Origin: Stigmatella ashevillena | GTDB lineage: Bacteria; Myxococcota; Myxococcia; Myxococcales; Myxococcaceae | Assembly: GCF_028368975.1 (NCBI RefSeq) | Contig: NZ_JAQNDM010000002.1 | Coordinates: 7,434,425-7,498,424 of the forward strand | DNA length: 64,000 nt | Direction of reading: 5' to 3' | Shown: positions 41,133 to 59,317 of the stretch, piece after piece | Layout of the letters: each line of letters opens with the position of its first letter | How positions within the stretch are numbered: position 1 is the first letter of the stretch | Notes under the pieces: model-generated | What the model was told of the DNA's origin: nothing | What the model saw: the letters and a program-made list of their open reading frames with translations, nothing else | The model's database searches: none | Made by a program: the position numbers and the translations under genes

Positions 41133-42338
41133 ATGCACCGTCGCCACCTGCTCCATCTCGCACTCCTGGGAGGAGGCTCGCTTGCCCTGGGGCCAGCCTT
41201 CTGGCGCAACGCTTACGCCGCGCCCATGAAGCCTGGAAAGAGTCCCTACGGGACGCTCTCGGCCACCCCCGACGCGCAGGGGGTGCTCCTGCCCAAGGGG
41301 TTTACCTCACGCATCATCGGGCGCACGGGAGAGGAGGTGCCTGGAACGCGCTACGTATGGCACCCCGCCCCGGATGGGGGGGCCTGCTTTCCTCTCCCCG
41401 GCGGCGGTTGGGTCCTCGTCTCCAACAGTGAGGCGGACCCCGGGGGAGCGTCCGCGGTGCGCTTCAATGCCAAGGGCGCCATCCAGGATGCCTACCGCAT
41501 TCTTCAGGGGACCGATACCAACTGCGCTGGAGGTTCTACCCCTTGGGGGACCTGGCTGTCCTGTGAGGAGACGGGCCGTGGGCGTGTCTGGGAGTGTGAT
41601 CCGTTTCGTCCCTCTCAAGGCGAAGCGCGCCCCGCGCTCGGGGCGTTCATGCATGAGGCTGTGGCGGTGGACCCCGTAGGCCAACGGCTCTACCTGACCG
41701 AGGACATGCCGGACGGACGGCTCTACCGTTTCACCCCGGCGAAGTGGCCCTCGCTGGAGTCCGGGACGTTGGAGGCTGCTCACGTCGCTGGGGATCCCCT
41801 GGTGGAAGCCACGGTGACGTGGGTCAAGGTGAAGCCGGACGCGCCCGCATCGGACCAGGACACCGCGGACCTCTCGAGTGAGTTCAGCGGGGGGGAGGGA
41901 TGTTGGTACGACAGCGGCACCGTCTACTTCACCACGAAGTACGACAACCGGGTGTGGGCGCTCACCGTGGCCACAGGCCGCCTGGAGGTTCTCTATGAAG
42001 CGGCGCGTTATCCTCAGTCGCCGCTGTCTGGCGTGGACAACGTCGTCGTCTCGCGCGCGAAGGAACTTTTTGTCTGCGAGGATGGCGATGACATGCAGGT
42101 CTGTGTCCTCACCCCGAACCTGGGGGTGGCGCCCTTCCTTCAGGTGATGGGCCACAAGGGCTCGGAGATCGCCGGAGCGGCATTCAGCCCGGATGGGAGC
42201 CGGTTCTACTTCAGCTCCCAGCGCGGGGTGGCCGGGCGCGGAGTCACCTACGAAGTGACGGGCCCCTTCCGCAACTCAGGACTTACGGGCGCTCGCCCAG
42301 GGGGCCCTGAACAAGCTGCTCCAGCTCCGCTTCGGTGA
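41133..42338 (+). CDS. PhoX-like (DUF839) secreted protein
   Basis: 401 residues of the PhoX/DUF839 family, often annotated as alkaline phosphatase PhoX. The N-terminus MHRRHLLHLALLGGGSLALG has a twin-arginine-like signal. Family signatures: TDTNCAGGSTPWGTWLSCEE, HEAVAVDPVGQRLYLTED, EGCWYDSGTVYFTTK and DNVVVSRAKELFVCEDGDD. True PhoX binds Fe and Ca and is Tat-exported. This protein has the scaffold, but phosphatase activity is not proven, as many DUF839 members differ. ATG 41133 follows ACGGAG; the longer in-frame start lies inside the redoxin gene. The last 56 bases overlap the convergent PfkB kinase gene. Confidence 0.85.
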   Translation: MHRRHLLHLALLGGGSLALGPAFWRNAYAAPMKPGKSPYGTLSATPDAQGVLLPKGFTSRIIGRTGEEVPGTRYVWHPAPDGGACFPLPGGGWVLVSNSEADPGGASAVRFNAKGAIQDAYRILQGTDTNCAGGSTPWGTWLSCEETGRGRVWECDPFRPSQGEARPALGAFMHEAVAVDPVGQRLYLTEDMPDGRLYRFTPAKWPSLESGTLEAAHVAGDPLVEATVTWVKVKPDAPASDQDTADLSSEFSGGEGCWYDSGTVYFTTKYDNRVWALTVATGRLEVLYEAARYPQSPLSGVDNVVVSRAKELFVCEDGDDMQVCVLTPNLGVAPFLQVMGHKGSEIAGAAFSPDGSRFYFSSQRGVAGRGVTYEVTGPFRNSGLTGARPGGPEQAAPAPLR

Positions 42339-43203
42339 GGAATCCACTGGCCCCCGCTGCCGTACCAATCTTGAAGGCGGCGAAGGCAACAGCCTTGCGA
42401 AGGGCCTGGTAGGGATCATTCGACTGGGCATACGCGTGGAGAAAGCAGGCGAAGAGCGCGTCCCCCGCCCCCACGGTGCTGACCACGGGCAAGCCTCGCA
42501 AGGCGGGAACATGGAGTGGGGCTGGGTCTCCACGAACCGAGAGCAGCGCGCCTTCCTCGCCCATGCCCACGACGATGATGCCGGTTCCGTAGCGCTCCCT
42601 CACTTGGCGGATCCACTCCGAGGGAGCCACCGGCAGCCGCTCATGGCTCATGAAGAGAATGTCCGCGGCGCGCATGAAGTCCTGGTTGTAGGGATCCTCT
42701 AACTGGGAGACGGTCTGCACGTCTGTGGCAATGGTTACGCCTGCTTCCCGGGCGAGGCGGAGCAGGGGGCGGCAGAAGTTGGCGTTGCCCACGGCCGCGA
42801 GCCTGCATCCCCGCAAGGCTTGTACGAAGTGCTCTTCTGGGTACGTTTGCTCCTGGACGTCCTTCAGGTCGATGTGGATCTGCCGACGCCCCTCCCGGTC
42901 ATAGAGGATGAGGGAGTGAGGGGTATCCACCAGAGACTCCAGGGCGAAGTCCTGGGAAAGCCCCTCCAGGGCGAACGTGTGGCGCACCAGCCCCCCGGCG
43001 GCGTCCCGCCCCAGCAGTGTGGCGCACCGCACGTCGTCTCCCAGCGTGCTGAGCGCTCGGGCGACATTGTACGCACCGCCCGACACGCTGCTTCCGAGGG
43101 AGAAGAAGGGGTAGCGGACCGGATCATACTGAAGGGGGAAGGCGTCGATCCGGTAGGTCATCTCCAATGCCACGATTCCCGCGACCAGGATGTGCTGACC
43201 CAT
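42283..43203 (-). CDS. PfkB/ribokinase family sugar kinase
   Basis: 306 residues, ribokinase fold with the GAYNVARALSTLG substrate loop and STVGAGDALFACFLHAY carrying the anion-hole GAGD and catalytic Asp. ATP-dependent phosphorylation of a sugar or cyclitol hydroxyl. In the acarbose cluster AcbK, an acarbose 7-kinase, belongs to this family, so a resistance/import-type phosphorylation is one possibility here. It ends the ten-gene minus-strand operon, 17 bases after the ROK gene, and overlaps the convergent PhoX-like gene. Confidence 0.88.
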   Translation of the reverse strand: MGQHILVAGIVALEMTYRIDAFPLQYDPVRYPFFSLGSSVSGGAYNVARALSTLGDDVRCATLLGRDAAGGLVRHTFALEGLSQDFALESLVDTPHSLILYDREGRRQIHIDLKDVQEQTYPEEHFVQALRGCRLAAVGNANFCRPLLRLAREAGVTIATDVQTVSQLEDPYNQDFMRAADILFMSHERLPVAPSEWIRQVRERYGTGIIVVGMGEEGALLSVRGDPAPLHVPALRGLPVVSTVGAGDALFACFLHAYAQSNDPYQALRKAVAFAAFKIGTAAGASGFLTEAELEQLVQGPLGERP

Positions 43204-43220
43204 GCTCGGCTCCAGATGCG

Positions 43221-44255
43221 TCAGGCTGCCCGGGAGCCTGCCTGAGAGGACTGAAGGAAGTAATAGCCGAGGCCATAGAGGCTGTGGTCGTCATCATTCT
43301 GGCCCAGGCAGACCATGGCTTGCCGCTCCGTCTCGGACAGGCAGAACAAGTCACACCGGGCAAGCTGGGCATGCATCCCTTCCAGGTAGCGCTCGCCCAG
43401 CGCCATGCAGAAGCCACCAATCAGGACGAAGCGCTTCACGCCAATGGCGTTGTAGAGCATGGCCAGGCAAGAGGCGAGGTGCGCCTGGCCGAAGGCCAGC
43501 ACGTCGCCCGCCAGTGCATCCCCCTCTAGGATCGAGGACACCACCGCATGAGTATCGATGCGCTCGGGCTCCCCATTCGTGAGGCGCCACAACGCGGAGT
43601 CCCGGAAGCGGGTCGGCTCCCGGCGGGCCCAGAGCCGCGCCAGCCGTTCGGTGCCCCGGCCGGAGGCAATTGCCCCCAGATGGCCGTGGCCTCCGCAGTC
43701 GCAGGGCAGGGCGTTGTCTCCCTCCACCACCTGGTGATGGCCCAGCTCGCCCCCCAGGCCCTGTTTGTTGAGCAGCATCCGGCCGCCCGCGAACACCTTG
43801 TTGCCGATGCCCGAGCTGATGGTGATGACGCCGAAGTCTTCGTTGAACCAGGGCTGGTAGCGGAACACGGCCGCGGAGATGTCGTTCATGACGGCCACGG
43901 GAATGTCGAATTCCCTCTGGAGTCGCTCACCCAGCGGAACGCTTCGCAGGGTGGTGCCCCACAGCGTGGGGGCACTGTGCACCTCGCCCCGCTCATTGAC
44001 CGGGCCGGGGAACGAGATACCGACGCCGGCAATGGGGTGGCGCCCGGCGTGGGCGCGGATGTGGCCGAGCACCTGCTGGATCAGCTTGTCGAAGAGCTGC
44101 TCAGGAGGCACTCCGGGGTTGTTGAGAAAGTTTTCCACGGGCCCACGGCCCACATCGAGCAGCTCCTGGTTGGTGCTGTCGAAGACGGCGCTCCGGAGGT
44201 TGGTCCCTCCAATGTCGATCACCACGTAGCGAGCCATATGCTCCGTTTCTTTCAT
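43221..44255 (-). CDS. ROK family kinase
   Basis: 344 residues: ATP motif VVIDIGGTNLRSAVF, GVGISFPGPVNERG, catalytic Asp in AVMNDISAAVF, and the zinc-binding region GELGHHQV then CDCGGHGHLGAIASG. No helix-turn-helix, so an enzyme and not a repressor. In acarbose biosynthesis AcbM, a ROK-family kinase, phosphorylates 2-epi-5-epi-valiolone at C-7, so this is a good candidate for the corresponding step. The start overlaps the stop of the nucleotidyltransferase gene (ATGA). ATG 44237 (MARYVV, after CGGAG) is an equally good alternative. Confidence 0.88.
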   Translation of the reverse strand: MKETEHMARYVVIDIGGTNLRSAVFDSTNQELLDVGRGPVENFLNNPGVPPEQLFDKLIQQVLGHIRAHAGRHPIAGVGISFPGPVNERGEVHSAPTLWGTTLRSVPLGERLQREFDIPVAVMNDISAAVFRYQPWFNEDFGVITISSGIGNKVFAGGRMLLNKQGLGGELGHHQVVEGDNALPCDCGGHGHLGAIASGRGTERLARLWARREPTRFRDSALWRLTNGEPERIDTHAVVSSILEGDALAGDVLAFGQAHLASCLAMLYNAIGVKRFVLIGGFCMALGERYLEGMHAQLARCDLFCLSETERQAMVCLGQNDDDHSLYGLGYYFLQSSQAGSRAA

Positions 44256-45334
44256 TCCAGGCGGCCAATGAAGTCCGACTCAATCACTTCGTTGGTACAA
44301 ACGATGGAGTTCTTGACATGCACTCCAGCGGCAACCCGGCTGCCGGGGAGGATGACGCTGTTCTCGATGTGAGCCCCCTCGCCGAGGGTGGCCCCCGCGA
44401 AGATGACCGAGTGTTCGATGTGCGCAGGGCCTTCCCCGAGCGCCGGGGGCACGATGGACCGGCGTACCCGCCCCGTCTCCGTGAGCACGCATCGCTCGCC
44501 CCCGGGCAGGACGCGCGGCATGTCCTCCAAGGGGACGCCAATTCCCTCCAGCAGGTTCATGTGGGCCCGGTGGTAGCGGTGCGCTGTGCCAATGTCCTCC
44601 CAGTAGTCCGGGAAGGGATAGCACTTGATGATCTCTCCTTGGGCCAGCATCTGTGGAATCACGTCGCGGCTGATGTCGTGCTGCCAGGATGTGCCTTGAA
44701 AGGCATCCAGATAGCGGTAGAGGATCTCATTCTGGAAGAGGCACACCGCGGTGAAGACCTTGTCCGAGGTGGGTTGGGGCGGCTTCTCCACGAAAGCCCG
44801 CAGGTTCATCCCTGCGTCGACCTCGACCATGCCGAACAGCGAGACGAACTCCAGGGGAATCTGCTGGAACCCGATGGTCAGCGCCGCGCGCTGCTCGAGG
44901 TGGAAGCGGTACATGTCCCGATAATCGAAGAGGTAGACATGGTCCGAGTGCAGGACGAGGGTATGGCGGTAGGGCGGGGTGTCGATGTAGGGCCGATTCT
45001 GGATGAGGGCATCCGCCGTGCCCTTCTCCTCGGCGCGTTGCACCTCCCGGTACACCTGCTCCGCGGGCTGGCGGTGCAGCGCGTTGAACGGACCGAAGTG
45101 GATGGGGATCCGGGAGTGCCACGTCTCGCGCAGGTAGGTGTGAAGTTGCTGCTCGTTGTAGCGGGACATCAGCAGGACTTCGTCGAGCCCTGAGCGTTGG
45201 GCGTTGTGCAGGCTGAAGTCCATCAGGTGGCAGCGGGTTCCGAACGGGATGACCGGTTTGACCCGGGTGGCCCCGAGTCGTCCCATGCGTTTGCCGTATC
45301 CGCCGGCCAGCAAGACGGCTCGCAGGTCATTCAT
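44252..45334 (-). CDS. Sugar-1-phosphate nucleotidyltransferase (GlgC-like)
   Basis: 360 residues. The nucleotidyltransferase signature LLAGGYGKRMGRLGATRVKP is at residues 8-27, with DHVYLFDY and VEKPPQP typical of ADP-glucose pyrophosphorylase-like enzymes. A C-terminal left-handed beta-helix has hexapeptide repeats (IEHSVIFAGATLGEGAHIENSVI). It makes an NDP-sugar or NDP-cyclitol. AcbR of acarbose and VldB of validamycin are GlgC-like enzymes that activate a cyclitol 1-phosphate. ATG 45334 follows TGGAG and overlaps the glycosyltransferase stop by 8 bases; the longer frame starts inside that gene. Confidence 0.9.
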   Translation of the reverse strand: MNDLRAVLLAGGYGKRMGRLGATRVKPVIPFGTRCHLMDFSLHNAQRSGLDEVLLMSRYNEQQLHTYLRETWHSRIPIHFGPFNALHRQPAEQVYREVQRAEEKGTADALIQNRPYIDTPPYRHTLVLHSDHVYLFDYRDMYRFHLEQRAALTIGFQQIPLEFVSLFGMVEVDAGMNLRAFVEKPPQPTSDKVFTAVCLFQNEILYRYLDAFQGTSWQHDISRDVIPQMLAQGEIIKCYPFPDYWEDIGTAHRYHRAHMNLLEGIGVPLEDMPRVLPGGERCVLTETGRVRRSIVPPALGEGPAHIEHSVIFAGATLGEGAHIENSVILPGSRVAAGVHVKNSIVCTNEVIESDFIGRLE

Positions 45335-47300
45335 GGACCGCTCCATCCCAGAACTGGCTGCCATCGGCCAAGGTGACCAGCAGGAACAGTGGCCTTCGCT
45401 GAGCCGCTGCGGGCAGGAGCGCTTCGAACGTGTCCCCCGAACGGGTGAGCAGGGTCCGTTCGAAGCGTCCCCCTTCTCCTTCGAGGAAGGACTCGACCTG
45501 CCTGGCTCCATCTAGACGATACTGGAGCTTTTGCCCAGCCGCCGAGACCGTATCGGCCAGCGTGGGAAGCCCTGGCGACGTGGGCTCGCGTCGGCGCAGC
45601 CCCAGCAGCTCTCCCTCGGTATGGATCGCAGCGTTCCATGTCTTCGCGGCCGCTGGCGCGGACGGGGGCTGGGCGGAGCCAGAGCTCGTGACCCGAGGCT
45701 CTTTCCAGATCCGCTCCATGATCTTGAGGTGGGCTTGAGCGCTCATTCGCCAGGTGAACTCCTGGGCCCGGGCCCGGGCGCGCTGGGAGAGTTGCTCATA
45801 GCGGGGACGATCCTGGTACAGCGACAGTGCCTCCTGCAACGCATGGACAAGGGAGTCCACCAAAGTCTCGTCATTGGCCAGGAAGGAGCGAATCACATCC
45901 AGTCCTGTGACTTGCTCTGGATTGGCACAGAAGGCGCGGCTGTGCCGCCAATGTTTCATGCCGAGCTGTCGGCTGGCGATGGGGACGCAGCCCGCCAGCA
46001 TGGCCTCACCTTGCGCGATGAGGAAGGTATCCATCTCGAACTTGGAGGGGAAAAGGCCGAAATCCGCCGCCGCCGCCATGGCGATCAGATCCTCCTCGGG
46101 CCGGTTGTGCCACTCCAGGCGGACCTGCGCCGGGAAGTCCTGCGCCAGGGAGTGATAGGCCGGATCCGGAATGCCATTGCCCGACAGGCAGCGGAGGATG
46201 AAGTTGCACTGCGCGCCGGCTTCAAGCACCTTGCGCGCGGCGCGCACGAGTTCGTTCTGCCCCTTGTGGTGCACGGCGTAGCGGGCGTTGTGGAAGAACG
46301 TGGGAAGCTCTGGCCGGAGCCCCAGCCCACCCAGGACTTCTTCCCGCCGGTATTGGCTGAAGTCCGTCTGGTGCCAGCGGTCGCTGATGGCGCACCAACC
46401 CACGAACATCTTCTGCTCATTCCGCTGCGTCACTTCGGCCACGCGCAGACGGCGGAACATGGCCTTGAAGGCAGTCCCCTCGAAGTTCCGGTAGAACTCC
46501 AGGTGGCCTTCGGACAGGAAGTCGACGGCATCGCTGTACTCGAGCAGCAACGGATAGAAGGCGATGTAGTCGTCCTGGTAGGGATAGTGCAGGTGGGTCT
46601 CGGGCAGGTACCCATTCAGGCAGCGGCCGAAAGCATCGGTCTGCGGCGCGTCGTTGAAGGGGGTCAGGTCGACGCGGACGTCCAGGAAGTCCAGCAACGC
46701 CTGCAGCTCGGGCCGGTACACCTTCTTGTTGACCGGCATGTTGCTCTGCACGGTGCTCACCATGCGCTTGGAGGCGTCATCCCGGAAAGCGAGCGGCAGC
46801 AGGTACTGGTAGAAGGGCTCGTGGGCGTGGATGAGCAGCTTCTCATCCGCGAAGAACTCGCGGATGAACAGCACCATGTCCATCTGGAACACCAGCGGCT
46901 TGAAGAAGCCGAGATCCTTCCCCTTGCTTTCGTAGGGCGGGTAGAAGGTGTCGCTGTAGCGGTCCAGCATGTCATTGCACAGGAAGTAGAGGTCTACGCC
47001 CTGGTGGCGGATCCGGTAGGCCCGCGTCTCCAGTTCCAGCTCCTGCCGGGGCTCGAAATCGCGCCACACGCGCGGATCGAGCTGGAGGGGCAGCTTGTAG
47101 CGCCGCCGGTAGGGCAGCTCCTCCACGGGATAGTTTTTCTGGAGGTAGTCGAGACGGCCGTGCGCGGCCGTGAGGACGGAGACCTGGTGGCCCTCGTTGC
47201 GAAAGGCGCTGGCCAGGTTCCAGGTGTAGACGGAGATGCCGCCCTTGATGAAGCTGTAATCAAAGCCGCCGCATTCCAGATAGCACTCGAGGATGTGCAT
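45327..47300 (-). CDS. GT-B glycosyltransferase (possibly pseudoglycosyltransferase)
   Basis: 657 residues. GT-B fold: N-terminal KGGISVYTWNLASAFRNEG and VSVLTAAHG, and C-terminal donor-site motif EMDTFLIAQGEAMLAG with SRQLG, similar to glycogen-synthase-like (GT5/GT4) enzymes. The last 120 residues are an extra domain rich in Arg/Leu with a WDG ending. Such GT5-like enzymes include AcbS and the pseudoglycosyltransferase class, which joins an NDP-cyclitol to an amino group. Which acceptor and donor are used here is unknown. The gene lies in the operon between the maltokinase-like gene (12 bases) and the nucleotidyltransferase gene (overlap). Confidence 0.85.
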   Translation of the reverse strand: MHILECYLECGGFDYSFIKGGISVYTWNLASAFRNEGHQVSVLTAAHGRLDYLQKNYPVEELPYRRRYKLPLQLDPRVWRDFEPRQELELETRAYRIRHQGVDLYFLCNDMLDRYSDTFYPPYESKGKDLGFFKPLVFQMDMVLFIREFFADEKLLIHAHEPFYQYLLPLAFRDDASKRMVSTVQSNMPVNKKVYRPELQALLDFLDVRVDLTPFNDAPQTDAFGRCLNGYLPETHLHYPYQDDYIAFYPLLLEYSDAVDFLSEGHLEFYRNFEGTAFKAMFRRLRVAEVTQRNEQKMFVGWCAISDRWHQTDFSQYRREEVLGGLGLRPELPTFFHNARYAVHHKGQNELVRAARKVLEAGAQCNFILRCLSGNGIPDPAYHSLAQDFPAQVRLEWHNRPEEDLIAMAAAADFGLFPSKFEMDTFLIAQGEAMLAGCVPIASRQLGMKHWRHSRAFCANPEQVTGLDVIRSFLANDETLVDSLVHALQEALSLYQDRPRYEQLSQRARARAQEFTWRMSAQAHLKIMERIWKEPRVTSSGSAQPPSAPAAAKTWNAAIHTEGELLGLRRREPTSPGLPTLADTVSAAGQKLQYRLDGARQVESFLEGEGGRFERTLLTRSGDTFEALLPAAAQRRPLFLLVTLADGSQFWDGAVHE

Positions 47301-47312
47301 GAAGTGGTCGCT

Positions 47313-48854
47313 CTATTCGAGCCCTTCCAGGTGGAGCAGGTAGTAGAAGTCGCAGTACTTGAAGAAGTCCCGGTGGTAGCTGTAGTTGTATTCCAGCTCC
47401 TGGAGGAGGCGGCAGACGTAGAACAGCCGCGCATAGCTGGGGTGGATGTCCAGGGCCGTGCCGCGCTCGAAGGCCCGCAGGTAGGCGCGCTCGATGCAGC
47501 CAAAGAGCCCCTTGCTCCAATCGGAGAGCAGCGTGAGCTGGGCCTGGCAGGAGAGGGGCAAGCGTCCGGGAGCTTCCAGCACGAGTTGGGTGGCCTCGAA
47601 CTGGGTGATGCCCAGCACGTCCTTGATGCCATCCAGAATCTCATCGAAGGCGAAGTATTGGATGGCGCGTAGCAAGCTGAGCAGATCCTGCAACACGGTT
47701 TGGGTGAGGAAGGCGGGGGCCTGCGCGTCGAGGCTGCGGGGGGAAACATCGAGGATGGAGAGCTGGGGCGTCCCGTCGTCGTCGGAGGCGACGAGGATGT
47801 GCGAGAGGTGCAGGTCGCCATGCGCGATGGTAGCGGGCAGCGGAGGCACGTGGCGGAGCCGCTCTGGCGCCAGGAGGACATGGGAGATTCGCTGGAGTTG
47901 CCGCAGGGCCTCGGCGCGAAGGGGCGAGGGCAGGGAGTCATCCCGCTTCACGGAGGCATGGAGCCGCGTCCAGCGGGCTCGGTGCGTGTCGAGGTAGGGG
48001 GCCAGTTGGAAGTGGGCAGGCTCACCGGGTGCGGTGGTCAGCCTCTGATTCAGGCGTTGGTGGAAGAGCAGCAATTGCTCACCCAGTCTGCGGCACAGGG
48101 GCTCGAGGTCCGCGAGCGCGTTCCGGGTGAGGGTGCTGACTTCCCTCGGGGTCGCCACCACCTGCGCGATGAGGGCTTTGATGTGGCGGCTCAGGGGCAG
48201 GTAGATGGGCTCGCCCTCGACCCGTGCCGTCATGGCCCCCAGGGCCTGGAGACCGGTGCCGTCCTCGTAGGTGATGGACCCCATCAGCTCTGGGGCGAGG
48301 CCGCTGCCCGCCAGGATTTGCAAGGCTCGGAGTTCATTGCCGCCCTCGGTGCTCAGGCGCTTGTAGAGCTTGCAGATCCAGCGGTCCTCACCGTGACGAA
48401 GCTCACTGAGACAATTGGACGACATGTCTACTTTGAACGGTGCGACCTGGAGTGGGAAGCGTTCTGTCCGGGGCGTCTGGGCGCGGCAATGGAGGGCCCG
48501 CTGCTTTTCAGTGGTGAGCGTCCGCTGCTCGCGCATGCATTGCAGCAGCGCGGTGATGAACCCCGCGTCATAGGACGCATCGCTCAGCAGTGTCTCCCGC
48601 TCCCCGGTGACGGTGACGCGCAGGGGAACGAAGTACTGATGGCCCGAGCCATGGAACCGCAGGAGGGTGAGCACGAAGGGGCTGGCTTCTCCGGGAAGCT
48701 GGACGAAGTCCTCGATGTCGAACCCCTCTTCCCGGCCACTGGGCTCACTCAGCCAGCGCTGGCCTTGGAAAGACTGGACCAGCCGTGAGCGGCATGCCTC
48801 AAGTTGGGTACGGGAAACCACCAGACCTGTCATGGCGCTCACCTCGAAGCTCAT
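47313..48854 (-). CDS. Maltokinase-like phosphotransferase
   Basis: 513 residues. The C-terminal half is a kinase fold related to trehalose-synthase-linked maltokinase: ICKLYKRLSTEGGNELRAL, the catalytic loop IAHGDLHLSHIL with SILDVSPRSL, and LQDLLSLLRAIQYFAFDEI. The N-terminal 180 residues resemble the maltokinase cap. It would phosphorylate the anomeric hydroxyl of a sugar or cyclitol. AcbU in acarbose, reported as a cyclitol kinase, suggests such a step before nucleotidyl transfer, though the homology was not tested. The start overlaps the aminotransferase stop (ATGA); ATG at MTGLVVS is an alternative. Confidence 0.82.
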   Translation of the reverse strand: MSFEVSAMTGLVVSRTQLEACRSRLVQSFQGQRWLSEPSGREEGFDIEDFVQLPGEASPFVLTLLRFHGSGHQYFVPLRVTVTGERETLLSDASYDAGFITALLQCMREQRTLTTEKQRALHCRAQTPRTERFPLQVAPFKVDMSSNCLSELRHGEDRWICKLYKRLSTEGGNELRALQILAGSGLAPELMGSITYEDGTGLQALGAMTARVEGEPIYLPLSRHIKALIAQVVATPREVSTLTRNALADLEPLCRRLGEQLLLFHQRLNQRLTTAPGEPAHFQLAPYLDTHRARWTRLHASVKRDDSLPSPLRAEALRQLQRISHVLLAPERLRHVPPLPATIAHGDLHLSHILVASDDDGTPQLSILDVSPRSLDAQAPAFLTQTVLQDLLSLLRAIQYFAFDEILDGIKDVLGITQFEATQLVLEAPGRLPLSCQAQLTLLSDWSKGLFGCIERAYLRAFERGTALDIHPSYARLFYVCRLLQELEYNYSYHRDFFKYCDFYYLLHLEGLE

Positions 48855-50504: not shown

Positions 50505-50555
50505 CTCCCGCTCACCTCTCCATGACACATCCCCGGCAGGTGGGATGCGCTGGGT

Positions 50556-51236: not shown

Positions 51237-51239
51237 GGT

Positions 51240-52874
51240 CTACTCCAAGCGCCGAAGGGTGCCATGCGCCAGTTGCAGCACCTGGGTGGCGTAGCGGTGC
51301 ACCCGGGGGCGATGCGAGATGATCAGGATGATGCGGTCCGCGGCTGCTTCCGAGAGGCGTTGAAAGAATGATTCTTCGTTGCCGGTGTCCAGGCTGGCGG
51401 TGGGCTCATCGAACAGCATCACTGGGGCCGCATGATACCACGCGCGAGCCAGGTGGAGCCGCTGCTTCTGCCCGCCTGAGAAATTCGTGCCCTCGTTCTC
51501 GACTTTCAGGGACGCTGCCTCGTCCTCGCGCACAAAGGTGTCGGCAGTGGACCGGTGCAAGGCTTCGGCGAGGCGCGCCCGGTCGGGCGTGCCATCGAAG
51601 AGGGTGATGTTCTCCTCGACGCTGCCATCCAGCAGCAGGCTCTGTTGAGGGCAGTAAGTCATCCACTGGGACAGCTCCGGGGGAGACAGGGTGCTCACAT
51701 CCCGGCCGTTCCACAGCACCTGCCCGTGGATGGGTTGAAGCAGCCCCGAGAGCAGATGGAAGAGGGTGGTCTTGCCACCTCCGCTCGGTCCTTGGATGAC
51801 ATAGATGTGGCCGGGCAGAAACGTGTAGTCCACGGAGCGCAGCAATTCCCGGTCCGAGCGCTTGAATGTCACGCCCCGCAGCTCCAGCCGCTCGATGGGG
51901 CCAGGGCTCAGGCCCCCCCTGGCGCGGCGGGAGGACTCTGACAGCAGGGGCAGCACCCGGGCGAACTGAGCATCCGCCTCCGCCAGTGCCTTGGAAAGTC
52001 GGCTCAGCCGGTAGACGGGCTCATAGGCAAAGCCTATCAACAGCAGGCTCAGGACCAGATCTCCCGCCGACAGGGCCCCTTTGAACATGGCCAGCGCGCC
52101 CGTGGACACCAGGGCCAGATAGGTCGACCCATGGAGCATCTGCTGCCACAGGGCCTGTCCGCTCTCGGCCAGGTCACGCCGGAACGCCGCTTGGTGGATC
52201 GTCCGGTTGTTCTGCTCCAGCGACTGCAAGAGGGTCTGCTCGGTGCCCGTCAAGGTGATGAGCTTGCGGCCCTTGAAGATGTCCACGTAGGCGCTGGCCA
52301 ACTCCCCCTTGGCGGTGACATAGGCTGTCGAGAAGCGGCGGCTGGTGGAGTGATGCAGGGCAAAGTTGATGGCGTGCAGCGCCAGAAATCCCAGGCTGAT
52401 GAGCAGGAAGTAGGGATTGACCAGATACAGCACCACCATCACGGCCATCGACACGAACAGGGCGTAGGCGCAGTAATAGACGAACTCTGGGAGCAGCATC
52501 TGGAAGTTGACGAGGATCAATGAGATGCGATTGACCAGCTCGCCTTCGCCCAGGGCGGACAGGCGCGTGATGGGCAGGGTGATGACTGACTCGAAATAGC
52601 GCTTGAGCAGGCCTTTTTCGATGAGCTGCCGCAGGCGCAGAAACAGATAGTCCTGCAACGCGTTGAGCACGGTGCGAGTGAGCACCATCAGCAGGACGAA
52701 GAGGCTGAACAGGTGAAACTGGCGGGCGCTGCCCCAAGGCAACAACGTGTCGACCACCACCTTGAAGCTGCTGGGAATCAGGAACGAGAACAGGGAGACG
52801 AAGGAAATTAATGCCAGGAGGATCGCCCAGTAGGTCCCGTAGCCCGCGTGCAGGTAGCGCAGCAGTGCCTTCAC
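51240..52874 (-). CDS. ABC transporter, fused permease/ATPase (half-transporter 2)
   Basis: 544 residues. Six-helix type I exporter domain (about 15-300), then an ATPase with Walker A GPSGGGKTT, Q-loop YCPQQ, signature FSGGQKQ and Walker B VMLFDEPTAS. It is likely a heterodimer with the upstream ABC protein, whose stop overlaps this start (ATGA). Exports a product of the cluster or imports it back; type I exporters fit export. No peptidase C39 domain is present. Confidence 0.92.
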   Translation of the reverse strand: MKALLRYLHAGYGTYWAILLALISFVSLFSFLIPSSFKVVVDTLLPWGSARQFHLFSLFVLLMVLTRTVLNALQDYLFLRLRQLIEKGLLKRYFESVITLPITRLSALGEGELVNRISLILVNFQMLLPEFVYYCAYALFVSMAVMVVLYLVNPYFLLISLGFLALHAINFALHHSTSRRFSTAYVTAKGELASAYVDIFKGRKLITLTGTEQTLLQSLEQNNRTIHQAAFRRDLAESGQALWQQMLHGSTYLALVSTGALAMFKGALSAGDLVLSLLLIGFAYEPVYRLSRLSKALAEADAQFARVLPLLSESSRRARGGLSPGPIERLELRGVTFKRSDRELLRSVDYTFLPGHIYVIQGPSGGGKTTLFHLLSGLLQPIHGQVLWNGRDVSTLSPPELSQWMTYCPQQSLLLDGSVEENITLFDGTPDRARLAEALHRSTADTFVREDEAASLKVENEGTNFSGGQKQRLHLARAWYHAAPVMLFDEPTASLDTGNEESFFQRLSEAAADRIILIISHRPRVHRYATQVLQLAHGTLRRLE

Positions 52875-54721
52875 GCCGCAGGCTCCCGCTCATGCTCCAG
52901 CGCGGCCCCGCGCAGCGTGACGTGCCCCTGCTCGACACGGATGACGTGCTCGAAGCGTTTGACGGCCTCAGGCGAATGGCTGATGACGAGGACGATGGCG
53001 TTTCGCAAGGCGAGGATGCTGTCCATCACCAGCCTGGCATTGGCTGAGTCCAAGGCCGAGGTGGGTTCGTCGAAGACGTAGATGTCCGCCCGGGTGGCCA
53101 GTGTCCTGAGGAGACAGATCCGCTGCCGCTCCCCGCCCGACAGCTCGGAGGGGCGCTTGTGGCCCCACTGCGGCAAGCCCAGCTGGTTCGCCAGCCGATG
53201 CCAGTCCTCTGCAGGGCCGGTGTTGCCTGTGGTGGGTGTGGCGTTGTCGGTGGCGCTGCGATCCCGGAAGACGAAATTGCCCTGGTCATGGAGCGCTACC
53301 CGGCTCCAGTACCCTGGCAGATCCTCGGGCGTCAGGGGGTGGCCATTCACGAGCAGGCGTCCCGCGTCCGGATGGAGCAAGCCCAAGAGCACATCCACGA
53401 GCGTGCTCTTTCCCGAGCCACTTTCGCCCTGGATGGCATAGTGGTACCCGCGGCGTAGCTCGAAGGAGGCCTCCTTCAGCACGTCGGGCTCACCGGGCCG
53501 GTAGCGGAAGCTGACCCTGTCGAGCCTCACGGACGTGATGCGGGGCGCCGGGTCTTCGCGAGGGCGGGGCGTGCTTTGCACCGGCGCGCTCATCAGCTCG
53601 TCGAGGATCTCGTAGTTGGCCTGCATGGACTGACCGTACACGTAGATGCGGTACACGTCGTCCAGTTTGGGGGTGACCATGGTGACGAGGAGGTACGCGG
53701 TGACCAGCTCTCCGAGGCGGATGGTCCCCGCGAAATACAGCGAGCCGCCGATCCAGAGCACTGACAGGAAGCTGAGCAAGGTCAGGGTGACCCGGCTGTT
53801 ATAAGCCAGATTCCATGTCAGCCATTTCCGGGACTGGTTGATGAAATGCCCGGCGGCAATGTGGGCCAGACGGCGTTCCACGGCCTCCCCGCCCTTGAAG
53901 CGCAGCAGCCAGTGAGAGGCGAAAGCGGATTTGAGGAATCCGCTGATTCGGCCCATGGCCTGAGGTTCATTCCTCAGAGACGAGGTGGCCCGGTCGGAGA
54001 TGAGGATGGGAACCCCGCAGGTGAGCACCACCGCGGGCACGACGATGAGGACGAAGGCGAAGTGGAAGGAGAGCAGCGCCACCGTGGAGACCCCGATGAG
54101 GCACAGCGAGCGCAGCAGGTTCCGAAGCGTGTAGAGTTGGTGTTTCTGCAACACCTCGATGACATCCGTCAGGTTGCTCAGCAGGCGCCCCTGCTCCTGG
54201 CGCCGGTAGAGCGCGTAGGGCATGTGGAGCAGGCGCTCCCAGCAACGCATCACCAGCCCCTGGGTGATGTGGAAGTTGCATTGTGCCGCCCATGTGTTGA
54301 GCAGGAATTCCAGCAACGTTCCCGTCACGAGGACGGTGGCGGCCACTGCGGTCAGGACCCACAGCGACGATGTGTCATGGTTGTATCGCAGGTGTTGCAA
54401 CACCGTGCCGAGATACCAGGCGAACGCGAATGGGAAGCTGAAGACCGCGCTGCCCGCGCTCAGCAGGAGCAGGAGGCCTCTGGCTCCTCGGTGGCGGCTC
54501 AATTCGGAGAAGACGCGGCGGAGCCCCTTCAGGTTCAGCCGCTGGCGGCGCTCGCGCTCCAGCAGGGCCGAGGCGCTCGCGGCGGCTTCCGCATGCTCTG
54601 CTCCCAGCTCCTTCAGGGCCTCTTCGACCAGGTAGCCCTTGTCCCGTTGCAGCCGGTGGATCTGGGCAAGGGCTTCGCCGTCCAACAGGCGATGACGCTC
54701 AAGGATGGACAGCAATGACAC
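52871..54721 (-). CDS. ABC transporter, fused permease/ATPase with N-terminal extension (half-transporter 1)
   Basis: 616 residues. A 75-residue N-terminal extension (SILERHRLLDGEALAQIHRL onward) looks like the helical T2SSE-N/MshEN type of domain; its c-di-GMP-binding motif is not visible. The type I exporter membrane domain follows (about 80-360), then an ATPase with Walker A GESGSGKST, signature LSGGERQR and Walker B IYVFDEPTSALD. First gene of the operon, 36 bases below the promoter-like element at 54758-54786. Confidence 0.9.
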   Translation of the reverse strand: MSLLSILERHRLLDGEALAQIHRLQRDKGYLVEEALKELGAEHAEAAASASALLERERRQRLNLKGLRRVFSELSRHRGARGLLLLLSAGSAVFSFPFAFAWYLGTVLQHLRYNHDTSSLWVLTAVAATVLVTGTLLEFLLNTWAAQCNFHITQGLVMRCWERLLHMPYALYRRQEQGRLLSNLTDVIEVLQKHQLYTLRNLLRSLCLIGVSTVALLSFHFAFVLIVVPAVVLTCGVPILISDRATSSLRNEPQAMGRISGFLKSAFASHWLLRFKGGEAVERRLAHIAAGHFINQSRKWLTWNLAYNSRVTLTLLSFLSVLWIGGSLYFAGTIRLGELVTAYLLVTMVTPKLDDVYRIYVYGQSMQANYEILDELMSAPVQSTPRPREDPAPRITSVRLDRVSFRYRPGEPDVLKEASFELRRGYHYAIQGESGSGKSTLVDVLLGLLHPDAGRLLVNGHPLTPEDLPGYWSRVALHDQGNFVFRDRSATDNATPTTGNTGPAEDWHRLANQLGLPQWGHKRPSELSGGERQRICLLRTLATRADIYVFDEPTSALDSANARLVMDSILALRNAIVLVISHSPEAVKRFEHVIRVEQGHVTLRGAALEHEREPAA

Positions 54722-54786: not shown

Positions 54787-54847
54787 CGGAAGTCAAGGGC
54801 CGTGAGCAGGGCTGGCGAGGGGGAGCAATCTACGGTAGAAGGCGCCG

Positions 54848-55951
54848 ATGAGTCTGGAAAAGGAGAGGCAACAGTCCCAGCTTGCTTTCCAGGCAAGCGG
54901 TCAGCAAATCGAGGTGGGCGACGTGTCCGCCCTGCCGCTGCCCCTGGAGCAGCTGGCCCGCACCACGGCCCAGAGTGAGTATGTGATAAAGGCTATCGAG
55001 TCCGGACTGACGGCTTACGTCTACCGGATCCAGGCGGGGGGCCGCCACTGGACGCTCAAGCGGAAGCGTGCCGAGAGCCTGGTGAAGAACGTGGACGGCC
55101 AGACGTCCTTCCTCAACGAGGTTCAGCGCCGCCGCGATATCACCGAGCTCCAGCGGCAGCCTCAGACCGCCCCGTTGTTCTCCCACATCGTCAAGACCCA
55201 GTATGCCTCCTTCCTCGATGGGGTGATCCTCTCGCCCTGGATCGAAGGAGAGCGGCTCCAGCGCTTCGATGGCCGGGTCTATGATCAGCTCTTCAGCACC
55301 ATCGTGAACCTGGAACTGCATGGACTCTTCGAGTGGGACTTCTGCCCGGGGAATGTCCTGGACGATGGCCAGCGGATCACCCTCTTCGATTTCGGGTACA
55401 TGTACCGCTTCGATCCGCGCCAGCACTACAACAACAACGGTTTCGCGACACCGTTGTTTCATGGCATCGAGCGGTTCGAGACGCGGAATTTCTTCGATCA
55501 CCTCCTGCGAAACCCCCACGGGTTGGATGCGCAGGGGCTCTTCGGTGTCTACCGGGAGGAGAAGACTTACGCGTTGAAACACTACGAAGACAAGTTGACC
55601 CGGCTGGAGGCCATGAAAGCCGTCGAGCCTGTCTTGCAATGGCAAGGGGCCATCAATCAGCGCTGGCGGCAGGCATTGCGCGGCAATGACAGTCTCCAGC
55701 GGCTGTACCTGGTCGAGGGGTTCCGCTCCAACGTGTTGGACCTCTTTGACGACTTGCACGGCAAGTCCTGTACGCCCATCACGCTCAAGAAGGCCGAATT
55801 CGCCGTGGACACGCTGCGGGAGCACTTCACCCTGCTGCGTGAAGAGAACGGGCTCTTCTTCGGCGACGAGACGAAGACGCAGGAGGAGCTGATTCTCAAG
55901 TACCAGGAGCTGAGGGCCAAGGCCGTCGAGTACCAGCTTCCCTCCAGTTGA
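54848..55951 (+). CDS. Small-molecule kinase-like protein
   Basis: 367 residues of the protein-kinase-like fold, distant from known families. It has a catalytic loop FEWDFCPGNVL (D164, N169) and D181-F-G183, with candidate Lys at 71 or 73; the N-terminal lobe is short. It resembles Kdo/LPS and aminoglycoside kinases in size and pattern, so it may phosphorylate a sugar or cyclitol. The longer tail (residues 200-367) is helical and unrecognised. The gene opens the plus-strand arm of the cluster, with 126 bases separating it from the divergent ABC gene. Confidence 0.75.
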   Translation: MSLEKERQQSQLAFQASGQQIEVGDVSALPLPLEQLARTTAQSEYVIKAIESGLTAYVYRIQAGGRHWTLKRKRAESLVKNVDGQTSFLNEVQRRRDITELQRQPQTAPLFSHIVKTQYASFLDGVILSPWIEGERLQRFDGRVYDQLFSTIVNLELHGLFEWDFCPGNVLDDGQRITLFDFGYMYRFDPRQHYNNNGFATPLFHGIERFETRNFFDHLLRNPHGLDAQGLFGVYREEKTYALKHYEDKLTRLEAMKAVEPVLQWQGAINQRWRQALRGNDSLQRLYLVEGFRSNVLDLFDDLHGKSCTPITLKKAEFAVDTLREHFTLLREENGLFFGDETKTQEELILKYQELRAKAVEYQLPSS

Positions 55952-55994
55952 AGTCACAGCCCTTGCCGGGCTCCCACCCTCTGCGAGCAATCAC

Positions 55995-57281
55995 GTGAGC
56001 GGCGCACAGACCAGCCTGTTCATCATGGGGGGCAGCAGCTTCTACACGCTGCTGCTGGTGGAGTCGCTGCACCGCGCGGGAGTGACGTCGCAGCTTCGCT
56101 GCATCACCCTGTTCGGGAGGGACGAGCAGCGGCTCAAGGCCGTGGCGCGGATGTGCGGTGAGCTGACCCGCTCCCTCGCACTTCCGGTGGGGTACACCAC
56201 GGACTTCGAGAGCTGCCTGGAGGATGAGTATGGGCTCGTCTTCAACCAGCTCCGGTTTGGAGGCATGGCCGCCCGGGACCTGGATGAGAAGATCGCCCTT
56301 TCTCAGGGGCTGGTGGCCGACGAGACCCTGGGCATGGTGGGGGTCAGCAATGCCATCCGGACCCTCGTGGGACTGACCCCCTTCCTGGAGACGCTGAGAG
56401 GCAAGAAGGGGCCCTACACGCTGGTGAACTTCACCAACCCGTGCAGCATTGTGACACAGTACATGCTGGAGCGGTTTGGGCTGCCCGTGGTGGGCATCTG
56501 TGATTACCCAGAAGTCCTGCGCTCTGCCTATGCCGAGTTGCTCCAACAGCCTCGCGCGAACCTGGCCATTCAGTACTTTGGCGTCAACCACTTCGGCTTC
56601 GTCCACGATGTGCTGCTTTCGGGGCAGAGCGTTTTCGCCGAACTCAAGGAGCGCCTCGACGCGTGTTCCCTGGCGCCGTCCTATCACCGGGCCTTCGAGT
56701 CGATCGTCATTCCCGCCTGGGACCTGATCTTCAACCGCAACGCGCTCTGGGAGGGGCAGCGGCAGAAGCCCAACCGCGCCTCGTTCCTGTATGCGCTGGA
56801 GCAGGAGCTGGCCGCGAAGGTGCGCCAGACCCCGCTGGAGGCCCTGTTCCCGGGGCCCTTCCTGGAACGGCTGGCCGCGCGGCGATGCGATTGGTACGAT
56901 CTCATCGTCACCCCTGTGCTCTCCAACCTGCTCCACCTTGCCCGCGCCCCGCTGATCCTCAACCTGGGGATCCAGGATCCGTTCGGCTTGGGCTGCCGGA
57001 CGTGCGTCATCGAGACGAACGCCGTCATGGGGGCGGAGGGCCATGTGGCGCTTCCTCCCTCGGAGCGGGTGGCCCGCTCTCCCGAGTTCACGCTGGTCAG
57101 ACAGATGAAGCAGGCCGAGGTGGAGTTGCTGGAGGCCATCCTGGAGCGTTCGCCCCAGCGGGTGCTCCGCGCCTGTCTGCTGAACCCGATGATCCAGGAC
57201 CACCGTGCGGTCCAGTCCTATTTCGCCGCGCTGTCCGAGGTGGACCCGCTCATCGCCGAACACCTACACCCGTTGCAGTAA
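55995..57281 (+). CDS. GH4-like NAD-dependent enzyme
   Basis: 428 residues of the glycoside hydrolase family 4 fold. Family signatures: a nucleotide-binding start (LFIMGGSSFYT, divergent from the usual GxGS), QLRFGGMAARDLDEKIAL and ADETLGM, NFTNPCSIVTQYM, C169 in VGICDYP and H199 in FGVNHFGF (the Mn ligands). GH4 enzymes work by NAD-dependent oxidation at C-3, so in a cyclitol pathway it could act as a dehydrogenase or de-glycosylase on a pseudo-sugar. GTG 55995 is the only plausible start. 43 bases after the kinase-like gene. Confidence 0.85.
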   Translation: MSGAQTSLFIMGGSSFYTLLLVESLHRAGVTSQLRCITLFGRDEQRLKAVARMCGELTRSLALPVGYTTDFESCLEDEYGLVFNQLRFGGMAARDLDEKIALSQGLVADETLGMVGVSNAIRTLVGLTPFLETLRGKKGPYTLVNFTNPCSIVTQYMLERFGLPVVGICDYPEVLRSAYAELLQQPRANLAIQYFGVNHFGFVHDVLLSGQSVFAELKERLDACSLAPSYHRAFESIVIPAWDLIFNRNALWEGQRQKPNRASFLYALEQELAAKVRQTPLEALFPGPFLERLAARRCDWYDLIVTPVLSNLLHLARAPLILNLGIQDPFGLGCRTCVIETNAVMGAEGHVALPPSERVARSPEFTLVRQMKQAEVELLEAILERSPQRVLRACLLNPMIQDHRAVQSYFAALSEVDPLIAEHLHPLQ

Positions 57282-57305
57282 CCGACGCACGTCATGGAGA
57301 GCCCC

Positions 57306-58025
57306 ATGGAAAGCCCATCGGTGGACAACACACGCTGGCTGTTCGACACGTCCCGTTTCCAGGCGCAGGGGTTCATCCACCTTCCGTCCTTCGTTCAAGG
57401 CGCCGAGCTGGAGTCCCTGCAGGCCGAAGTGCTGGCGCTGATCTCCAGCAAGGCGCTGATGGTGCCTCGCGAGGGCTCCGAGCACTTCTTCAAGAAGTAC
57501 CAGTCAACCAGCTACTGCTACGTGGACCGGCACGAGCACGTTCCCACCCTGGCCGCGCTGATCAATCACCCCCGCTTGCGCCACATCGTGCGCGAACTGC
57601 TGCCGGAGGAGGGGCTCTTCCACGCCTCGCTGGTGCAGTACCACAAGGCCGGAGAGGGGCAGGCCATCCCCTGGCACCAGGACATCGACCCAGAGATCGT
57701 CGGCGCGGGGCAGATGTTCAACTTTCTGCTCTACCCGTTCGACACCTCGCTGGAGTCGGGTGCGCTGTTCGTGGTGGAGGGCAGCCATGGGAACAAGCGC
57801 CTTCCGGCCGGCGAGCCCCACGGCGACTTGCCGGGCCAGATGCACCTGTGCCCCCGCGCGGGCGACCTGGTCATCACGGATTGCACCTTGTTCCATAAGG
57901 TGAACCACAACACCTCGGGCCGGGATCGCATGTCGATCAACATGCGGTTCCGCAACGGGGCGTTGGATCGGAAGCAGACCTCCGTGGGCATCTATCGCAA
58001 TGGGCGAGTGAACTATGGGGGCTGA
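57306..58025 (+). CDS. PhyH-type Fe(II)/2-oxoglutarate dioxygenase
   Basis: 239 residues of the phytanoyl-CoA dioxygenase family. Facial triad: H124 and D126 (PWHQDID) and H197 (LFHKVNHN), with R206 for 2-oxoglutarate ([11 protein letters not shown]). Would hydroxylate the cyclitol or pseudo-sugar. VldW, the dioxygenase that makes validamycin B, is a functional precedent. ATG 57306 is preferred over ATG 57294 because it is preceded by GGAGAGCCCC; the other has no ribosome site. 24 bases after the GH4 gene. Confidence 0.88.
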
Positions 58026-58096
58026 GTGTCTGGGCTCCGCGAGCCCGAGGACTCCAGTCCCCCCAACGAGCTAGCAGGCTTCTGGGCGACGACATC

Positions 58097-59317
58097 ATGG
58101 CGCATATCAAGGTGGTGGGTGGCGGTACGAGCGTGATGGGCAGCACGCTGCAGGTCTCCGCTCAGGCGGACTTTGGCTATGGGGTGCACAACGAGGAGGG
58201 GCTCTTCGCGCCGGGCAACCCTCTCGTGCGGGGTCTCTGTGGTGATTCGCGCATGCTGGTGTGCATCAGTCCCTCCGTGGACCGCCTGCATGGGGAGCGG
58301 ATCCGCCAATACTTTCGCACCCACTTCGCGCCGGAGCAGTACCGCTTCCAGGAGGTGAGCACCTCCGAGTCGAACAAGTCGATCGAGAACGTGCTTCGCC
58401 TCTGCGAGGCGGCCAAGTCCTTCTGGTTGGACCGGCACGGGCTCCTGGTCGCCATCGGCGGTGGCATCGTCCTGGACGTGGTGGGCTTTGCCGCGTCCAT
58501 CTACCGGCGTGGCATCCGGTACATCAAAGTGCCGACCACCCTGGTGGGCCAGGTCGACGTGGCCGTGGGCGTCAAGACGGGGGTGAACCTGTCGGGCTCG
58601 AAGAATCTGATTGGCACGTACTACCCCGCGTACGCGACGCTCAACGACAGGGGGTTCCTGTCCACCTTGCCTGCCCGGGAGCTGCGGTGCGGGCTGGCGG
58701 AGATCATCAAGATGGGGCTCGTGTGCGACCCGGAGATCTTCACCGCTCTGGAGGAGCACTTCCTGCCGCCGGTGAGCAAGCACCTGGAGCACCCTCTGCC
58801 CCAGGAGGCCGTGGTGGGGGCCATGGTCCGGATGATTGAGGAGCTGCAGCCCAATCTGTTCGAGCTGAACCTCGAGCGCCTGGTGGATTTCGGGCACACG
58901 TTCAGCATGAGCCTGGAGACGGTCAGTGGGTACGCTCATGCCCACGGCGAGGCCGTGGCCATGGACATGGCGCTGTCGGCCTGTCTCAGCAACGAGCTGG
59001 GCATCTTGAGCGAGGCCGAGTTCGAGCGGATCCTCACGTTGCTGGATGTGGTGGGGCTGCCGGTATTTGACGAGTCCCACTGCTCGATCGATGCCATGTG
59101 GCAGGCCCTGATGGAGGTGAATGTGCATCGGGGCCACCGCATCAACCTGGTGATTCCGGCCCGGATCGGCGAGGGAATGTTCCTGCACAGGCTGGAGGAT
59201 GTGCCCCGGGACGTGCTGGCACGGGCCATTCGCCGCATGTCAGGGCTGTCCCGGCGGCACGGTGTGGAGGCGCTCGGCTCCGAAGGGGACCAATTGGGGC
59301 GCGCCTCAGGAGCGTAA
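58097..59317 (+). CDS. Sugar-phosphate cyclase (DHQ/2-epi-5-epi-valiolone synthase family)
   Basis: 406 residues. The dehydroquinate-synthase fold with [34 protein letters not shown] (K160), SKN (169-170), metal ligands E202 (AEIIKMG), H267 (GHTFS) and H283 (HGEA). The HTFS phrase, DMALS and overall pattern point to the C7-cyclitol cyclases that use sedoheptulose 7-phosphate (EEVS and relatives), not to shikimate DHQ synthase. EEVS versus EVS or DDGS cannot be decided by eye. It would be the entry enzyme of the cluster. ATG 58097 has a weak ribosome site. Last gene of the plus arm, 71 bases after the dioxygenase. Confidence 0.88.

Follow-up and report, generated by a model that had tools for sequence, protein, structure and literature searches.

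The window, a stretch of 64,000 nucleotides from Stigmatella ashevillena (contig NZ_JAQNDM010000002.1, positions 7,434,425 to 7,498,424 of the forward strand; genome of 10.95 Mb), carries a cluster of 14 genes at positions 42283-59317. Working from the letters alone, the original prediction had described this cluster as an uncharacterised C7-cyclitol gene cluster resembling those for acarviosin or validamycin. Its genes were analysed by domain searches, phylogenetic trees and comparison with other genomes, and the cluster is discussed here as a putative pathway to an exported pseudo-aminosugar starting from a sedoheptulose 7-phosphate (SH7P) cyclase.

Gene content and layout

Two divergent, tightly packed operons had been predicted and were confirmed. 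The minus strand holds ten of the genes (42283-54721), the plus strand the other four (54848-59317), and a spacer of 126 bp lies between the two operons. All 14 genes are open, without internal stops, at the ends listed below. The gaps between neighbouring genes range from -11 to +27 bp on the minus strand and from 12 to 71 bp on the plus strand. Pfam domain calls agreed with the predicted families across the 14 genes. For the nucleotidyltransferase gene the family stood and the start was revised: translation most likely begins at 45334, which gives 360 aa and makes the gene overlap that of the glycosyltransferase by 8 bp, rather than at the mechanical start of the open reading frame, 45511. 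The G+C content is 64.2% in the cluster stretch and 65.8% in the rest of the window, so the composition gives no strong foreign signal.

42283-43203, minus strand: PfkB-family kinase, 306 aa (PF00294, E 1.4e-22); proposed AcbK/SctK-like 7-O-kinase of the product
43221-44255, minus strand: ROK kinase, 344 aa (PF00480, E 5.2e-30); proposed cyclitol 7-kinase (AcbM/SctM-like)
44252-45334, minus strand: GlgC-like nucleotidyltransferase, 360 aa (PF00483, E 1.4e-38, scanned from 45442); proposed cyclitol-1-phosphate nucleotidyltransferase (AcbR/SctR-like)
45327-47300, minus strand: GT-B-type glycosyltransferase, 657 aa (PF13439 and PF08323); proposed pseudoglycosyltransferase (AcbS/SctS-like)
47313-48854, minus strand: APH/maltokinase-like kinase, 513 aa (PF01636, E 3.4e-9); proposed cyclitol 1-kinase (AcbU/SctU-like)
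48851-50143, minus strand: pyridoxal phosphate-dependent class III aminotransferase, 430 aa (PF00202, E 6.7e-85); proposed amine step (AcbV/SctV-like)
50133-50528, minus strand: cupin, 131 aa (PF07883, E 3.3e-10, metal-binding motif 1 intact); proposed C2 epimerase (SctJ-like in size)
50556-51236, minus strand: HlyD-family adaptor, 226 aa (PF13437, E 4.2e-7)
51240-52874, minus strand: ABC exporter with fused membrane and ATPase domains, 544 aa (PF00005 and PF00664)
52871-54721, minus strand: ABC exporter with fused membrane and ATPase domains, 616 aa (PF00005 and PF00664)
54848-55951, plus strand: divergent APH-like kinase, 367 aa (PF01636, E 0.0011, below cut-off)
55995-57281, plus strand: GH4-like NAD/metal enzyme, 428 aa (PF02056, E 3.8e-19); proposed cyclitol oxidoreductase and/or dehydratase
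57294-58025, plus strand: PhyH-type Fe(II)/2-oxoglutarate dioxygenase, 243 aa (PF05721, E 8.5e-19); proposed late hydroxylase
58097-59317, plus strand: sedoheptulose-7-phosphate cyclase, 406 aa (PDB matches, tree, residues); proposed 2-epi-valiolone synthase

For the 544-aa ABC exporter, the best 25 of 167 NCBIfam matches included CydC/D, type I secretion and NHLP-exporter models, and those 25 were all below cut-off. The 616-aa exporter gave similar models, again all below cut-off among the best 25 of 177. The HlyD adaptor had no NCBIfam match at 1e-5. The best solved match of the PhyH dioxygenase was ectoine hydroxylase (E 1.7e-5).

The cyclase

Among solved structures, the cyclase matched 4p53 best (E 3.8e-72), followed by 5tpr (6.1e-55) and then by 3-dehydroquinate (DHQ) synthases (from 5.9e-45). 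The entry 5tpr is filed as a DHQ synthase, and we take it to be the DDGS of Anabaena. It grouped with full support (100/100) with a Nostoc cyclase, and an O-methyltransferase gene comes after that of the Nostoc enzyme, consistent with DDGS. The structure 4p53 is that of ValA (PMC4426668).

A tree of 34 rows was calculated from selected loci, one row (L038, 725 aa) having been dropped beforehand. The window cyclase fell inside a 22-row clade of SH7P cyclases (support 99/97) and outside the shikimate DHQ synthases, among which its placement would, by the original prediction, have spoken against the cluster assignment. By PDB ranking and tree, the enzyme is assigned as an SH7P cyclase, and its identity as a DHQ synthase was rejected. 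Within the clade, a branch of 14 rows (100/99) unites ValA, cyclases of S. clavuligerus and rhizobia, two other myxobacterial groups and DDGS. The window cyclase lies outside this branch. Four Stigmatella cyclases and the cyclase of Streptomyces sp. NBC_00467 (94/90) form the sister group of the EEVS and DDGS branch (89/68), and three cyclases of another myxobacterial family (f2) are placed deeper in the clade.

The AE, GH and HGEA motifs and the GGGIVLD stretch of the window cyclase align with ValA, and the Glu/His/His positions are kept. We take these positions to be the metal ligands and GGG to be the NAD-binding motif. Two fingerprint sites are described as separating bacterial EEVS from DDGS (PMC4426668). 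At positions 287 and 366 of the ValA chain, the window cyclase has Asp and His, and both DDGS rows have Ala and Thr. These positions presumably correspond to Asp281 and His360. The Asp/His pair is not specific to EEVS, as both residues also occur in other SH7P cyclases that the tree places elsewhere than in the EEVS branch. These data also bear on a sunscreen-type product (gadusol or mycosporine) made from a DDGS- or EEVS-like cyclase. The second rank of 5tpr speaks for it, but the window cyclase lacks the Ala/Thr pair and lies outside the DDGS clade, and no methyltransferase, ATP-grasp family or MT-Ox is found among the 14 genes, which makes such a product scarcely conceivable.

An ortholog of the window cyclase occurs in the genome G078, which is identified by sequence matches as Stigmatella aurantiaca DW4/3-1. 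Over 515 residues, its bacteriophytochrome differs from PDB 6bap at a single position, 289, where the genome encodes Thr and 6bap has His, a difference that fits the T289H variant described for the S. aurantiaca phytochrome (PMC6126659), and the genome matches exactly the start of a cloning primer printed there for strain DW4/3-1. At E 1e-20, two cyclase matches were found in this genome, namely a 92% ortholog in a syntenic cluster and a gene at 36%, itself the 91% ortholog of the aroB-like gene of the window genome. At E 1e-55, the 92% ortholog was the single match. The DHQ synthase-like enzyme of S. aurantiaca DW4/3-1 reportedly makes 2-epi-valiolone (Asamizu and colleagues, 2012). Because the ortholog is reported to be a 2-epi-valiolone synthase (EVS), this activity fits the window cyclase, for which it is predicted only, better than that of an AcbC-type EEVS. 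Of the predicted AcbC-like, uncharacterised C7-cyclase, the SH7P cyclase was thus retained; the enzyme stands outside the ValA-containing EEVS branch, and its ortholog has reportedly been characterised.

Genome contigs scanned with the cyclase yielded 11 loci at 26-35% identity. Eight loci (L054-L061, genera g3 and g7), spread over seven further genomes of the family to which the window genome belongs, hold EEVS-branch cyclases. Other hits above 50 bits to window genes in their 20 kb contexts were to SDR or ROK proteins only.

Conservation and related clusters

The same 14 genes are present in the same order, with 76-98% identity, in three of the six other genomes of the genus (G077, G078 and G079), which excludes a chance arrangement. 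The set therefore occurs together in four of the seven genomes of the genus; in the other three, the cluster was not found by searches with the cyclase (E 1e-20) and the glycosyltransferase (E 1e-15) that covered all seven. Homologues of the window glycosyltransferase at E 1e-15 were found in four of 195 Myxococcota genomes, all four in this genus, for which Allostigmatella has been given as a replacement name of Stigmatella (PMC13281875).

The flanks were also compared. An SDR gene (60967-61728), neighboured by a dioxygenase gene (59885-60940), was rejected as a cluster member: it occurs in all seven genomes of the genus, including the three without the cluster, and is therefore flanking. No empty insertion site was recovered, as the left flank (30001-42500) had no DNA match in three 20 kb regions around the SDR gene of the cluster-free genomes, and no clean boundary emerged. 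A gene labelled by eye as PhoX/DUF839-like (41130-42338), convergent with the PfkB gene, also borders the cluster in G077, G078 and G079. In S. aurantiaca, about 1.35 kb of extra sequence (L090, about 4673-6024) separates the cyclase gene from the flanking dioxygenase gene; its frames resemble, by eye, paralogs of ribosomal proteins L28, S14 and S18. Literature searches listed no publication on the cluster or on what it makes. Three saccharide clusters were counted in the set of sequenced myxobacteria presented in PMC6616573.

Outside the genus, a related row was seen on a plasmid of Streptomyces sp. NBC_00467 (L045), comprising a cyclase, cupin, aminotransferase, three ABC genes, kinase, glycosyltransferase, nucleotidyltransferase, ROK, RmlD-like, NUDIX, HAD, MalQ and PfkB. 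Comparison of the window proteins with 17 annotated proteins of this locus gave eight reciprocal best hits: glycosyltransferase (44%, 703 columns), aminotransferase (53%), nucleotidyltransferase (49%), cyclase (45%), ROK (40%), cupin (38%), PfkB (33% over 233) and kinase (27% over 512). A ninth pair, an ABC ATPase with 25% over 199 residues, was not counted. Aminotransferase, kinase, glycosyltransferase, nucleotidyltransferase and ROK follow in the same order in both loci, and both have a cupin; in the plasmid cluster, unlike the window, the cupin gene adjoins the cyclase gene, and an ABC-2 exporter, RmlD-like, NUDIX, HAD and MalQ genes are present. Genes annotated as blsE and blsF (blasticidin-like) were seen about 16 kb away on the same plasmid (L045, 1-1466). 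On a plasmid of Streptomyces sp. NBC_00868 (L069, 11112-20057), a 45% relative of the window glycosyltransferase is accompanied by RmlA-like, two glycogen-synthase-like, HAD and MalQ genes, with no cyclase annotated in the stretch shown.

Table 1 of PMC8234114 lists the acarviostatin genes of sct in the order V, W, X, Y, U, S, R, with sizes similar to those in the window and on the plasmid. The window row (cupin, aminotransferase, kinase, glycosyltransferase, nucleotidyltransferase, ROK, PfkB) and the plasmid row agree with this list, V-(WXY)-U-S-R, and with the sizes of its proteins. By family and by the reciprocal best hits, the acb/gac/sct-type set of cyclase, ROK, 1-kinase, GlgC-like nucleotidyltransferase, GT5-like glycosyltransferase, aminotransferase and PfkB is complete in the window.

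These matches were weighed against primary or surface carbohydrate metabolism, in which a DHQ synthase paralogue would stand beside glycogen- or trehalose-like genes for a storage or surface glycan. The GlgC-like, GlgA-like and maltokinase-like families are indeed glycogen relatives; glgC was the best NCBIfam match of the nucleotidyltransferase, and the 47313-48854 kinase had a weak, below cut-off match to a putative maltokinase. Nevertheless, this explanation is very improbable. The cyclase does not group with DHQ synthases, and two further DHQ_synthase genes exist in the window genome, one of them best matched by aroB. The glycosyltransferase has its narrow distribution, and the operon proteins found their reciprocal partners in a cyclase-bearing, acarviostatin-like Streptomyces cluster rather than in a known glycan pathway. 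The cluster proteins also missed the NCBIfam cut-offs for glgC, glgA and aroB, a weak argument given that the aroB-like protein of the genome misses its own (285.5 of 305 bits).

Equivalents of AcbO, AcbL and AcbN are absent from the 14 genes. It had been suggested that the cupin and the GH4-like enzyme may substitute for them. We keep this suggestion, and the cupin and the divergent GH4-like NAD/metal enzyme probably replace the three proteins. The pairing of cupin and cyclase is not unique to the locus, as a cupin homologue adjoins the cyclase on the NBC_00467 plasmid and in all three f2 genomes (L053, L062 and L063, in G005, G003 and G004, respectively), with reciprocal best hits in NBC_00467 and L053. 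A GH4-like gene lies by the cyclase in two of the three f2 genomes, and the third has a resembling fragment at a contig end. The G005 row consists of ROK, a DegT aminotransferase, GH4, a Gfo/Idh-like gene (by eye), cyclase, cupin and a NUDIX-like gene (by eye); its ROK is also the reciprocal best hit of the window ROK (37%). With their deeper-branching cyclases, the f2 loci make up a second kind of SH7P cyclase cluster.

The window protein begins with an NAD-binding motif, as GH4 glycosidases do (e.g. BglT, 1up7), and has their Cys and His residues. These features are kept in the alignments of the Stigmatella and f2 proteins, and we take the Cys and His residues to be metal ligands. Unlike GH4 glycosidases, it is linked to a cyclitol cyclase gene and has DETLG for QETTG and C[DE]xP for CNxP, as do the Stigmatella and f2 proteins generally versus six generic Myxococcota GH4s. 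In an 11-row tree, the Stigmatella and f2 proteins stood on one side of a branch supported by 100/99. Both of their branches are long (2.8 each), and the union could be an artefact. We read the protein as a putatively repurposed NAD/metal enzyme. GH4 as a general marker of such clusters was rejected. At 1e-8, GH4 matches occurred in 19 of 195 Myxococcota genomes, 13 of them outside this genus and f2, and none of the seven neighbourhoods examined among these 13 had a cyclase or cupin hit at 1e-6.

Proposed pathway and comparison with known systems

We consider it probable, at roughly 78%, that the cluster serves the formation of an exported, C-N-linked pseudo-aminosugar of the acarviosin kind (acb/gac/sct), starting from an EVS-type cyclase. 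The recurrence of cupin, ROK and GH4 with the cyclase in family f2 supports this reading. The kind of cluster is known; new is the proposed route through EVS, cupin, GH4 and PhyH with an ABC/HlyD exporter. The product may be new, and its structure, stereochemistry and acceptor are putative only.

In the proposed pathway, the cyclase would convert SH7P to 2-epi-valiolone, as reported for the S. aurantiaca ortholog. The ROK kinase would phosphorylate O7 and the cupin would epimerise C2. GH4 chemistry comprises oxidation, elimination and reduction, and would suit ketone reduction or C5-C6 dehydration; the GH4-like enzyme could thus stand in for AcbL and AcbN by reducing the ketone at C1 and perhaps also eliminating the hydroxyl at C5. 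By analogy with AcbU and AcbR, the 47313-48854 kinase would phosphorylate O1 and the GlgC-like enzyme would form a nucleoside diphosphate (NDP)-cyclitol. The class III aminotransferase, as an AcbV counterpart, would make the amine, probably dTDP-4-amino-4,6-dideoxyglucose from the product of housekeeping RmlA and RmlB. The single GT-B enzyme would couple NDP-cyclitol and amine through nitrogen as an AcbS-like pseudoglycosyltransferase. Finally, PhyH would hydroxylate, the two ABC proteins and HlyD would export, and PfkB, like AcbK, would keep the intracellular product phosphorylated.

The original prediction had concluded from the lack of dTDP-deoxysugar genes that the chemistry must differ. 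None is present among the 14 genes, but a difference in chemistry does not follow, because RmlA (505 bits, cut-off 361) and RmlB (484 bits, cut-off 365) are encoded elsewhere in the genome, so that an AcbV-like aminotransferase would have its substrate. In the assembly G000, rmlA was seen three times with identical scores (C1:938809-941459, C2:9996421-9999225 and C2:10008398-10009252), near the ends of both contigs and once on the other C2 strand, probably an assembly overlap or terminal repeat.

Alternatively, the aminotransferase might aminate a cyclitol ketone (valiolamine- or validamine-like), with the glycosyltransferase adding an ordinary sugar or O-linking the NDP-cyclitol, to give a simple aminocyclitol glycoside that has no C-N bridge. 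The named class III enzymes closest to the aminotransferase act on amino acids, GABA or other amines, the 14 genes hold no dTDP genes, and the single glycosyltransferase has no AcbI partner. An Agrobacterium vitis plasmid, furthermore, carries an SH7P cyclase and ROK followed by dehydrogenases, with no glycosyltransferase annotated in the stretch shown, where the gene table is incomplete. However, the aminotransferase is the 53% reciprocal best hit of that in NBC_00467, whose cluster has kinase, glycosyltransferase and nucleotidyltransferase in U-S-R order, and a nucleotidyltransferase together with a 1-kinase would make most sense with an NDP-activated cyclitol donor. We regard this alternative as unlikely. 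The biochemistry of AcbU, AcbR, AcbS and AcbI has been described, and clusters with an AcbS-like gene lacking an AcbI partner have been reported (PMC9200736).

Several observations weigh against the acarviosin-kind reading. The grouping of the NBC_00467 and window cyclases (94/90) joins long branches, as the program warned, and the sister relation to the EEVS and DDGS branch reaches only 89/68. The NBC_00467 proteins gave no hit to the window GH4, PhyH, second kinase or HlyD, and identical products of the two clusters are therefore unlikely. Homology to AcbS, AcbR, AcbU and AcbV is indirect, by way of the Streptomyces cluster and the published sizes and listing order. By Pfam, the 14 genes include no AcbI, amylomaltase, AcbJ-type phosphatase or AcbWXY-type exporter; a second, AcbI-type glycosyltransferase and in-cluster dTDP-sugar genes were not found. 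A pathway-specific role of the second kinase (54848-55951) was not borne out, as four g7 genomes carry orthologs of it (71-76%), and the three neighbourhoods examined there, away from any cyclase, had no other cluster gene save a weak 26% ROK hit. The tyrosine that presumably acts as catalytic base in generic GH4 enzymes, within the region P..Y..YY/FY, is kept in the six generic and the f2 rows, and three Stigmatella rows read PAWDLIF there.

The products of EVS and EEVS differ only at C5, and a C5-C6 dehydration would erase the difference. A pathway would therefore gain from EVS only if C5 were kept, which leads to a valiolol-type (hydrated) acarviosin as a tentative, possible though doubtful variant. 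The cupin would give valiolone 7-phosphate, the GH4-fold NAD/metal oxidoreductase would reduce it and the AcbS-like enzyme would couple it. Two points suggest that the C5 hydroxyl is retained: it is EVS that fixes the configuration of valiolone at C5, and no AcbL-type dehydratase is encoded in the cluster. If true, nature would possess in this cluster a dedicated pathway to pseudo-disaccharides resembling voglibose. A GH4-fold enzyme is not known to us from the literature as taking part in pseudosugar formation, although no search was aimed at this question.

Acarbose is a diabetes drug. Like validamycin, it belongs to the widely used glycosidase inhibitors (PMC9200736). The EVS product has been called a putative precursor of hitherto uncharacterised metabolites (PMC5133447), and the locus offers a testable 14-gene context for this question in S. 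aurantiaca DW4/3-1, for which a complete genome is available. The locus also singles out the cupin and the GH4-like protein as enzymes that may take the place of the known epimerase and dehydrogenases. Additionally, a myxobacterium exporting such an inhibitor would bear on the natural role of these compounds, which the account of PMC9200736 leaves open.

Among known systems, sct as described in PMC8234114 likewise has no AcbO, AcbL or AcbN equivalents and encodes a small protein, SctJ (138 aa, window 131 aa), proposed there as a 2-epimerase. From its size, we infer that SctJ may be a cupin. With both acb (acarbose, Actinoplanes sp. SE50/110) and sct (acarviostatins, Streptomyces coelicoflavus ZG0656), compared by description, the window shares the cyclase, ROK 7-kinase, 1-kinase, GlgC-like nucleotidyltransferase, GT5-like glycosyltransferase, aminotransferase, PfkB and an ABC exporter. 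Unlike them, it has an EVS-branch cyclase and fused ABC and HlyD proteins in place of AcbWXY, adds the GH4-like, PhyH and second kinase genes, and has no dTDP-sugar genes, AcbI, amylomaltase, amylases or AcbJ among its 14 genes. The validamycin cluster (val/vld) is said to contain a dioxygenase, VldW. It resembles the window in the SH7P cyclase ValA (PMC4426668), the ROK protein ValC and the GlgC-like ValB/VldB (PMC9200736). Its pseudoglycosyltransferase VldE is of the GT20 type (PMC9200736), whereas the window glycosyltransferase matches GT4/GT5-type families only.

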